From contig NZ_CP023018.1 of assembly GCF_022406875.1 (NCBI RefSeq), positions 1,273,414-1,337,413 of the forward strand: a DNA stretch of 64,000 nt. The letters run 5' to 3'. The translations under genes were made by a program, and so were the position numbers. Origin of the DNA: Ectothiorhodosinus mongolicus (GTDB taxonomy: Bacteria; Pseudomonadota; Gammaproteobacteria; Ectothiorhodospirales; Ectothiorhodospiraceae). The notes below the pieces were generated by a model that ran no database searches, was not told the origin of the DNA, and saw only the letters and a list, made by a program, of their open reading frames with translations. Of this stretch, positions 25,711-52,059 are shown one piece after another; position 1 is the first letter of the stretch, and every line of letters begins with the position of its first letter.

Positions 25711-25739
25711 CTTGAAAAGCCGTATCGATGACCCCATCT
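25711..25739 (+). promoter_or_regulatory. Sigma-32 heat-shock promoter of clpB
   Basis: CTTGAAA at 25711-25717 and CCCCATCT at 25732-25739 are separated by 14 bases, an excellent match to the RpoH consensus CTTGAAA-N(11-16)-CCCCATnT. Transcription should start near 25746, about 33 bases before the clpB ATG. Confidence 0.92.
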
Positions 25740-48350: not shown

Positions 48351-50108
48351 TTGCGGCTTAAGCTGCAAAAACTCCTCAACAGCCAGCTTGTCTGGCTGTT
48401 GGCGTTTATGCCGCCTGCTTTTGCGGATTTGCTGATTGATGAGGCGCGTCTGCTTGCCCGTATGGGTGCCACCGATATGGCTTTGGAGGTTTTAGACCGA
48501 GAGTCTTTGGACTGGCAGGTGCAAACCGGGGCATGGATGGATCGCGAACAAGTGCGCCTGGAGATACTCAGTCAGGCTGAGCGCTGGGAAGAAGTCGCTG
48601 AGCGCGCTGCGCTGATTCCCATTGAATTACCGGTAGAGTTTGTCCTGTGGGGACGTACCCAGCAAGCCACCGCGCAGCTAGCTCTAACACAAAGCCAAGC
48701 AGCCCGAGACACTTTGCGGCCATTGATATGGTTCGGCTCACAGCATGTCGAAGCCCGCTGGCTGCAGAACTGGCGTCGCATGGTCATCGAATCCTATGAG
48801 CAGGAAGAGCGCTGGGCAGACGCCTTGCCCGCCTTGGCTTTTTATCAAGCTGACTATAGCGATCAAGGAGAAGATCTTAGTCTTTGGTTAGCGCGTCTGT
48901 TTTTTGCCTCGGGGGATTATGCAGCGGCTGCTGCTCAGCTGGTTGGGGCCAGTGATGCGCGTGGCATCGCACTGCGCCTCATGGCGGAGCTGCAATTGCC
49001 TGAGAGTAATGCCGAGCAAATCCGTCAGCGAGCCGTGCGTCAGGCCAGAGCCCAGAGCGCTGGCAGTGCCGATGCAGCTCGCTCACTTGCAGTAGCGGCC
49101 CGTGCCGCAATGGCAGGTGATCAGCTACAGGCTCAGATCCTGGCTTTAGAAGCGGCTCTGGCTACTCAGCGACATCTGCACACCGATGATCGGGCTTTTC
49201 AAATTCCCAGCCAGTGGCTGTGGGAAGCCTATCAACGGCTGGGTGCCCAGCAGAGTAATGAAAGACAGCTGCTCTTGGGTGAGGATGAAGCATGGATACA
49301 ACTCGTGACATCTTTAAGCGCTAGTGATGCGGTGACAGCCCGCGCTTTGCTGGTGCAGATGGCAATGCGCTGGCCCAACCCTGCTGGGCGAGATCAGGCT
49401 CATGATGGCTTTGTTCGCCTGCTGCTGGATTCGCTCAGTGGTGGCAGCGAGGTGCTTAACCGTCTTTATCTCACTGGCACCGTTTATGGCAGCCCACAGA
49501 GAGTGCCGCACGGGGCGCGTCATCTGCTGGCACAGCGTTTGTTGGAAGCTGGCGATTTGGCCACTGCGGCCAGCTTAATGTTGGATGTTCAGGCGCCGCC
49601 CGCCAGTTTAGATGGCTTTGATTGGGGCCTGCGTCGGGCGCGGGCGCTAATTCTGGGCGGCTACGAAGAAGCGGGCATTGATGGATTATACGATGTGTTA
49701 GCTCAAACCCCGGTATTGGACGAAGCCCGGGGTGAGCGTTTTCTGCAGGTGATGTTTGATCTGCAAACGGTGGGGCGTGATCAAGAGGCCATTAACCTGT
49801 TTCAGGCCTTGGCACCGCGTTTGGAGTCTTCTCGGCAAAGACGCGAGTTATGGTTTTGGATGGCCGACTCTTATCGAGCCCTGGAGGAATATGACTTAGC
49901 GGCGCGGTTGTACTTGCGTTCGGCCTTGGCCGGTGACAGCACTGATCTTTGGGGGCTGAGCGCGCGTTTTCAGGCAGCTGAGGCCTTAGCCAAGGCTGGC
50001 TATCTGAATGATGCCGCTTCCCTCTACCGCGATCTATTGCGCCGCACCGACGATCCGGGACGCCGCCTCGTCCTCGGCCAAAAACTCCAAGAGTTGCTGC
50101 TGCGTTGA
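48351..50108 (+). CDS. Secreted helical-repeat (TPR-like) protein of unknown function
   Basis: I do not recognise a named family for this 585-residue protein. Residues 1-26 form a Sec signal peptide ending FMPPAFA-D. The rest is nearly all alpha-helical with TPR-like units, for example LDEARGERFLQVMFDLQTVG, AINLFQALAPRLESSRQRRE and ALEEYDLAARLYLRSALAGD, and is rich in Ala, Leu, Glu and Arg. It is expected in the periplasm as a scaffold or adaptor. The start is TTG, 11 bases after AAGGAAG, 3 bases after rplS, and the gene ends inside the htpG heat-shock promoter. Confidence 0.8.
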   Translation: MRLKLQKLLNSQLVWLLAFMPPAFADLLIDEARLLARMGATDMALEVLDRESLDWQVQTGAWMDREQVRLEILSQAERWEEVAERAALIPIELPVEFVLWGRTQQATAQLALTQSQAARDTLRPLIWFGSQHVEARWLQNWRRMVIESYEQEERWADALPALAFYQADYSDQGEDLSLWLARLFFASGDYAAAAAQLVGASDARGIALRLMAELQLPESNAEQIRQRAVRQARAQSAGSADAARSLAVAARAAMAGDQLQAQILALEAALATQRHLHTDDRAFQIPSQWLWEAYQRLGAQQSNERQLLLGEDEAWIQLVTSLSASDAVTARALLVQMAMRWPNPAGRDQAHDGFVRLLLDSLSGGSEVLNRLYLTGTVYGSPQRVPHGARHLLAQRLLEAGDLATAASLMLDVQAPPASLDGFDWGLRRARALILGGYEEAGIDGLYDVLAQTPVLDEARGERFLQVMFDLQTVGRDQEAINLFQALAPRLESSRQRRELWFWMADSYRALEEYDLAARLYLRSALAGDSTDLWGLSARFQAAEALAKAGYLNDAASLYRDLLRRTDDPGRRLVLGQKLQELLLR

Positions 50109-50132
50109 AAAAAATGGGGTACGACCCCATCT
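50104..50132 (+). promoter_or_regulatory. Sigma-32 heat-shock promoter of htpG
   Basis: GTTGAAA at 50104-50110 and CCCCATCT at 50125-50132 are 14 bases apart, the same spacing and same -10 as the clpB promoter in this window. The -35 overlaps the stop codon of the upstream gene, and the -10 lies in the palindrome. The start would be near 50139, about 34 bases before htpG. Confidence 0.8.
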
Positions 50133-50153
50133 AAGGGGTCGTACCCCATTTTT
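50110..50153 (+). terminator. 19-bp palindrome: probable terminator overlapping the htpG promoter
   Basis: Bases 50110-50128 and 50135-50153 form a perfect 19-bp stem with loop ATCTAA, A-rich at the left foot and ending in TTTTT, so it should terminate the rplS-linked transcript in the forward direction. Each arm is itself a small dyad (GGGGT-ACG-ACCCC). The sequence resembles GGGGT...ACCCC-type interspersed palindromes, but only this copy was noticed here. Confidence 0.75.
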
Positions 50154-50172
50154 CTGTTATTGAGAGCACGTC

Positions 50173-52059
50173 ATGACCGTCACAAGCCATAAAGAAACCC
50201 ACTCTTTTCAGACTGAGGTCAGCCAGTTGCTGCACCTCATGATTCACGCGCTTTATTCGAATAAAGAGATTTTTTTGCGTGAACTGATCTCCAATGCAGC
50301 CGATGCCTGTGACAAATTGCGTTTTGAGGCCCTATCCGACGATGCTCTGATGGAAGGTCAGGCTGAACTGGCAATCGACATCCAGTTTGATCCCGAGGCT
50401 AAGACGTTGAGCATTACGGATAATGGCATCGGCATGAATCGCGAAGAAGTGCTGGCCAATATCGGCACCATTGCCCGCTCCGGAACCCGCGAATTTCTCA
50501 CCAAGCTCACTGGCGATCAGAAAAAAGATGCGCATTTGATCGGCCAGTTTGGTGTGGGATTTTATTCAGGATTCATCGTTGCCGACAAAGTCACGCTCAC
50601 GACTCGGCGCGCCGGTATGGGCGCTGAACATGGGGTGCGCTGGACTTCCGATGGCAGTGGCGAGTTTGAGATTGAAACTCTTGAACGGTCTCAGCGCGGC
50701 ACGCAGGTGGTGTTGCATCTGAAAAAGGACGCTGAGGAGTTTCTCGATGAGTGGCGGCTGCGACAGATTATTACCCGGTATTCCGATCACATCTCCCTAC
50801 CGATTCGCATGCCTAAGCGCGATGACAAAGGTGAGGAGATGGGTGAATGGGAAACCGTGAACCGTGCCAGCGCCCTCTGGACCCGCTCCAAGTCAGACAT
50901 CAGTGACGAGGAATACCACGAGTTTTACAAACACGTAGCCCATGATTTTGAAAACCCCTTGGCTTGGACGCATCACCGCGTTGAAGGCCGCCAGGAATAT
51001 ACCTCGCTGTTATACATCCCACGACGTGCACCCTTTGATCTTTGGGATCGAGAGCGCCGCCAGGGTATCAAGTTATATGTACAGCGCGTCTTCATCATGG
51101 AAGAAACAGAGCAGTTGATGCCGACTTATCTACGCTTTGTGCGGGGCGTGATTGACTCAGCTGACCTGCCATTGAACATTTCCCGTGAGATCCTGCAAAG
51201 CAATCGCTTAATTGACGGCATGCGCTCAGGTTCGGTGAAGAAAATCCTGGGGCTGCTGGCGGATATGGCAAAAAACCAACCCGAGCAATATGCCGAGTTT
51301 TGGGAGGCATTCGGCCGTGTGCTCAAGGAAGGTCCCGCCGAGGATCATGCCAATCAGGAACAAATTGCTCAGCTGCTGCGTTTCGCCAGCACCCATTCCG
51401 GTGAGGCCAAGCAAGACGTCTCGCTTGAGGACTATGTGGCGCGCATGTCCAAGGATCAGGACTGCATTTATTACATCACCGCCGATTCTCATGCGGCGGC
51501 CAGCAACAGCCCCCATCTAGAGGTGTTTCGCAAACGCGGTATCGAAGTGCTGCTCCTGTCTGATCGGGTGGATGAGTGGCTGGTGGCACATCTGACGGAG
51601 TTTCAGGGGAAAAAGCTGAAATCAGTCGCCAAAGGCGATTTGGATTTAGGCAAACTCGATTCCGAGGACGAGAAAAAAGCTCAGCAGGAGGCTGAAGAGC
51701 AAGCCAAAGATTTACTGCCGCGCCTAAAAAATGCCCTCGAGCAACAGGTGGAAGACGTGCGGTTTTCTCATCGCCTGACCGATTCCCCGGCCTGCATCGT
51801 GCTCTCCGAGCATGATATGGCGCTGTACATGCAACAGTTGCTCAAGCAGGCTGGCCAAGATGTGCCGCGCACGCGGCCGGTGCTTGAGGTGAATCCGGCG
51901 CATCAATTGATCCAGCGAATGCAGGCCGAAAGTGATGAACAGCGCTTTCAAGACTGGGCCAGCTTGTTGCTCGATCAGGCCATCTTGGCCGAAGGTGGGC
52001 AACTGGAAGATCCCGCCGGTTTTGTGCGCCGGATGAACACATTGATGATGGCTGCGTGA
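50173..52059 (+). CDS. htpG: Molecular chaperone HtpG (Hsp90)
   Basis: The 628-residue protein (E. coli 624) has the GHKL ATPase domain with [20 protein letters not shown] (catalytic Glu and Asn), [20 protein letters not shown] and [17 protein letters not shown], then the middle domain with [20 protein letters not shown] and the C-terminal dimerisation region. It remodels client proteins with DnaK. A GAGAG site precedes the ATG. The strong sigma-32 promoter and following terminator make it a single-gene heat-shock unit. Confidence 0.98.

Follow-up and report, generated by a model that had tools for sequence, protein, structure and literature searches.

The junction between a TPR-like gene and htpG

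In the window (the whole 64-kb stretch of DNA analysed here, in which positions count from the first letter) htpG follows a TPR-like gene at a distance of 64 bp, and a candidate sigma-32 promoter and a perfect palindrome share bases at this junction. The features, with the clpB promoter, are as follows.

25712–25739, + strand: putative sigma-32 promoter of clpB, TTGAAA-N14-CCCCATCT, a sequence match given for comparison
48351–50108, + strand: TPR-like gene, an ORF of 585 aa that starts 3 nt past the rplS stop codon
50105–50110, + strand: putative sigma-32 −35, TTGAAA (GTTGAAA from 50104), overlapping the stop codon TGA at 50106–50108
50110–50128, + strand: left arm of the hairpin, AAAAATGGGGTACGACCCC, from sequence and fold, including the repeat unit GGGGTACGACCCC (50116–50128)
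50125–50132, + strand: putative sigma-32 −10, CCCCATCT, identical to the −10 at the clpB, rpoD and htpX sites
50129–50134, + strand: loop of the hairpin, ATCTAA, which completes CCCCATCTAA, common to four sigma-32-type sites
50135–50153, + strand: right arm of the hairpin, GGGGTCGTACCCCATTTTT, from sequence and fold, including the repeat unit GGGGTCGTACCCC (50135–50147) and a T-run
50138–50140, + strand: inferred 5′ end of htpG RNA made from the sigma-32 promoter, 6–8 nt past the −10 by the usual promoter geometry
50173–52059, + strand: htpG, Hsp90-family chaperone (NCBIfam NF003555, molecular chaperone HtpG, 858 bits)

The protein encoded upstream has a weak TPR-type Pfam match, with a score under that model's cut-off, and its homologues in same-genus relatives are 49–51% identical. 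The window matched no Rfam family and contained no tRNA that we could find.

The original prediction described a −35 lying over the preceding stop codon and a −10 formed by the 3′ side of the left arm and the loop of a perfect 19-bp hairpin, and the sequence bears out this geometry. The TGA at 50106–50108 lies inside GTTGAAA according to both the sequence and the ORF, the spacer is N14 (50111–50124), and the −10 is divided at the end of the arm (50128), with CCCC belonging to the left arm and ATCT to the loop. The arms at 50110–50128 and 50135–50153 pair perfectly over 19 bp (10 of them GC pairs) around the 6-nt loop, and the first stem base lies 1 nt past the stop codon. We dropped the overlap of −35 and stop codon as a special feature of this site, as the same overlap is seen, with different genes upstream, in relatives, namely at four Thioalkalivibrio loci (L037, L038, L060, L061) and one in Thiothrix (L069).

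A palindrome that belongs to a dispersed repeat family

The original prediction described a heat-shock promoter built into a terminator-like palindrome. The promoter half of that claim stands, given the shared motif and its conservation described below, but the palindrome belongs to a dispersed REP-like repeat family and we reject the idea that it was made specially for htpG. Exact inverted pairs of the form GGGGTACGACCCC-N1..30-GGGGTCGTACCCC number 33 genome-wide (0 in the reversed control), this palindrome among them, and for the 18-mer GGGGTCGTACCCCATTTT we counted 101 matches forward and 119 reverse at ≤3 mismatches, against 0 and 1 in the reversed control. The genome thus holds many near-identical palindromic units, including inverted pairs, and sister units of the types GGGGTCAGACCCC/GGGGTCTGACCCC and GGGGTCTGTCCCC are present as well. 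The sequence GGGGTCNNACCCC occurs 131 + 140 times in this genome; in same-genus genomes the totals are 0–5 for eight and 13 for the ninth, most of them close to what the reversed control gives, and in the genome with the highest count (G007) the core is mainly GGGGTCACACCCC. A literature search on the exact repeat-unit sequences found no paper. Forward matches per 100 kb are dense at 0–0.4 and 1.4–2.0 Mb and sparse at 0.4–1.4 Mb. Among the neighbours of the GGGGTCTGTCCCC repeats are short genes of toxin-antitoxin-like character (L101, L102) and a gene, ‘MDEDKD...’, that is itself repeated (L106, L141).

Many repeat clusters sit 4–5 nt from a stop codon. We sampled 400 kb in stretches picked as repeat-rich, a choice with no bearing on gene distance, and called genes crudely from ORFs. 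Of the 88 clusters in this sample, 19 are ≤15 bp from the stop codon of a gene that runs toward them, compared with 1.9% of random positions. The htpG copy is typical, with its GGGG core 7 nt past the stop, and tagged REPs likewise favour positions just past ORF ends (PMC3733652). The family is not purely a set of terminators, because the same crude calls put ∼45% of the clusters inside ORFs of ≥100 aa (for example L163 and L164); some of these ORF-internal clusters are apparently in long real genes.

Evidence for a sigma-32 promoter

The sigma-32 consensus is TTGAA / CnATnT (PMC9866376, citing Cowing 1985), and RpoH induces htpG, clpB, htpX and rpoD in Pseudomonas aeruginosa (PMC9866376). At the junction a TTGAA −35 and a C-ATnT −10 stand within the 12–15 nt range of each other, a heat-shock gene lies downstream and the arrangement is conserved in relatives. 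The spacing and −10 had been called identical to those of clpB, and both sites indeed read TTGAAA-N14-CCCCATCT; in the window TTGAAA-N11..17-CCCCATNT occurs at htpG and clpB only (shuffle mean 0.01). Across the genome (1,995,095 bp) TTGAAA-N12..15-CCCCATNT gives 7 matches and the reversed control 0. Four of the 7 fall in a repeat tandem, TTGAAAAAAGGGGTCTGTCCCCATTT, and the remaining three, at htpG, at clpB and in dnaG upstream of rpoD, share both the N14 spacing and CCCCATCTAA. Upstream of htpX, CCCCATCTAA is found a fourth time, there in a TTGAAT-N13 site, and the htpX promoter is conserved in most genus relatives examined. Additionally, relatives from Ectothiorhodospira to Thiothrix carry CTTGAAA-N13/14 with a CCCCA-type −10 upstream of htpG, and the distance from −10 to ATG is 40–45 nt at four loci of the genus (L029, L030, L033, L034) and 40 nt here. 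The −35 reads GTTGAAA and not CTTGAAA, which counts against the promoter. Since the motif is common to clpB, rpoD and htpX and the htpG promoter is conserved in relatives, the sigma-32 promoter of htpG is well supported and very likely real.

The tandems of TTGAAAAAAGGGGTCTGTCCCCATTT (G000:C1:248298, 360895, 361740 and 1403534) mimic a sigma-32 promoter with N12, and no heat-shock gene is evident at them. A motif within the repeat is therefore not in itself proof of a promoter, and for sigma-32 motif scans in this genome the repeat units are a source of false matches. Relaxed matches at 116321, 439243, 1024347, 1194120, 1341369 and 1683820 (G000) all fall within ORFs, and we took them to be chance occurrences.

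If the htpG motif were a by-product of a repeat arm and of a TTGAAA present at the stop codon by chance, htpG would have to be driven from elsewhere. The repeat arms do end in ACCCCATYT, four other copies give TTGAAA-N12-CCCCATTT, and 67 unit edges in the 400 kb read CCCCATNT. However, only 1 of these 67 edges has a TTGAA at N12–15, itself in a repeat tandem, and N14 with CCCCATCTAA matches the clpB and rpoD sites, while the htpG promoters of relatives lie at the same distance from the ATG; we consider this explanation highly improbable.

Two further observations concern htpX and rpoD. A repeat pair sits directly upstream of the conserved htpX sigma-32 site, beside and not over it (L110, G000:C1:1545396-1545476), and in the relative G007 the hairpin close to this position is another one, of GGGGACAG type (L176). 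The consensus site in dnaG lies ∼300 bp upstream of rpoD (L103/L144, G000:C1:811280-811309).

History of the junction

In three same-genus relatives (G006, G007 and G009) a stretch of ∼2.7 kb holding three genes separates htpG from rplS and the TPR gene upstream. Because this ∼2.7 kb is replaced here by 64 bp, the intervening genes were probably lost, and the deletion, a step toward a smaller genome, would have moved htpG next to the TPR gene. The repeat pair would have occupied an existing promoter by insertion, or been fitted to it through mutations around it. In G001 and G008, two genomes of the genus, a GC-rich hairpin of ordinary appearance, with a T-run, stands just upstream of the htpG −35, which suggests that insulation upstream of htpG is usual.

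Predicted folding and a proposed mechanism

The RNA of 50090–50200 folds at −44.2 kcal/mol (z = −6.2), and 0 of 200 shuffled sequences were equally stable. An RNA carrying both arms (50111–50200) folds at −36.3 kcal/mol, whereas RNAs starting at 50138 or 50139 fold at −4.7 and −2.9 kcal/mol, respectively. A stable GC-rich stem-loop and a T-run lie downstream of a gene, as in an intrinsic terminator, although the T-run that follows is short (TTTTTCTGTTATT) and some of its bases are already counted in the stem; stem, T-run and position past the stop codon make a role as terminator plausible. The claim that the htpG mRNA begins with a mini-hairpin, GGGGT-CGT-ACCCC, did not survive: this structure needs 50135–50147, and a start at 50139 loses 4 of its first 5 bases. 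It would take a start at or before 50135, three bases past the −10, which is not expected.

Taken as a whole, the site is likely a functional RpoH promoter of htpG overlaid on a dispersed REP-like inverted pair, in which upstream RNA would be terminated and sigma-32 RNA would escape. Polymerase coming from the rplS-TPR operon would transcribe both arms, and the resulting RNA would fold into the 19-bp hairpin followed by a short U-run, leading to termination, to protection of the 3′ end or to both. Upon heat shock, RpoH polymerase would recognise the −35 that overlaps the stop codon together with the −10 provided by the foot of the left arm and the loop, and its transcript would start in the right arm at about 50138–50140. 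This htpG mRNA would be without the left arm, could not form the full hairpin and would escape. Termination of one transcript and escape of the other would thus be possible because only the read-through RNA carries both arms. One short stretch probably both ends the upstream gene and starts htpG.

The hairpin could instead be a passive mobile repeat next to a real promoter, causing no efficient upstream termination and having no effect on htpG. The high copy number of the family, its many units inside ORFs and the finding that only 85 of 314 unit edges (about a quarter) precede a T-rich stretch are what such a repeat would show; against it stand the perfect 19-bp stem with a T-run past the stop codon, the enrichment of the family near stop codons and the hairpins with T-runs upstream of the htpG −35 in G001 and G008. 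We regard a passive repeat as unlikely. A negative effect of the hairpin on htpG initiation, through transcriptional interference, as the original prediction suggested, or cruciform extrusion, would be in keeping with a −10 and start region that lie inside an inverted repeat and with read-through from the TPR gene that would cross the promoter, yet no comparable palindrome covers the −10 in the relatives examined, and such a regulator seems very doubtful. There is also a rather slim chance that a mobile REP-like dimer was co-opted as terminator and heat-shock promoter at once, with its loop providing part of the htpG −10. It would form a self-insulating unit that stops transcripts from upstream and lets those started within it escape, and read-through would lower htpG initiation until heat shock.

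Our preferred reading, an RpoH promoter overlaid on a repeat pair, makes the site a clean natural case in which the bases of a conserved stress promoter are also those of a dispersed repeat, one that can be used to test whether repeats take over terminator or promoter jobs during genome reduction. A promoter function of such repeats was left as speculative by Di Nocera et al. (PMC3733652).

Comparison with known systems

The htpG repeat shares several traits with the REP/TIR dimers of RAYT/TIRYT transposases, whose TIR motif is GGGGWSAS (Di Nocera 2013, PMC3733652; GGGGWSAS-type repeats are subclass 2.1 in PMC6006769). Both consist of short, high-copy palindromic units, many of them in inverted pairs and enriched past ORF ends. 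The only Y1 transposase gene found in this genome (Y1_Tnp, L024) is RAYT-like, with a score of 67.6 bits against an NCBIfam RAYT cut-off of 80, and the repeats on its flanks are GGGGACAG/GGGGACTG units and not the exact htpG unit. Unlike the TIR dimers, the htpG unit has a core, GGGGTCGTACCCC, outside GGGGWSAS: GGGGTCGT and GGGGTACG do not fit the motif, whereas the sister units (GGGGTCAGACCCC, GGGGTCAG and GGGGACAG) do. The GTAG/CGTC tag of tagged REP superfamilies is absent from the foot of the stem, which is GGGG with A/T-rich flanks. Because the htpG unit itself lies outside GGGGWSAS, we say that it resembles REPs as a REP-like relative and is not a proven TIRYT-TIR member.

In its −35, its −10, its 14-nt spacing and its target, and in having siblings at clpB, rpoD and htpX, the promoter is like other gammaproteobacterial RpoH promoters; it differs from them in that the −10 is divided between hairpin arm and loop and the −35 starts GTTG, not CTTG. 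A literature search of open papers found no close precedent for a promoter embedded in a terminator.

In E. coli the rpoD heat-shock promoter lies inside dnaG, and this genome likewise has TTGAAA-N14-CCCCATCT in dnaG upstream of rpoD; in contrast to the htpG site, that promoter is within coding sequence and without a hairpin. Finally, the htpG loci of G001 and G008 also have a sigma-32 site that follows a hairpin with a T-run by no more than a few tens of bases, but there hairpin and promoter stand side by side and here they overlap. The parts of the junction are thus ordinary and known, and the site is a modest variation on them, unusual mainly in that a repeat and a promoter share bases.
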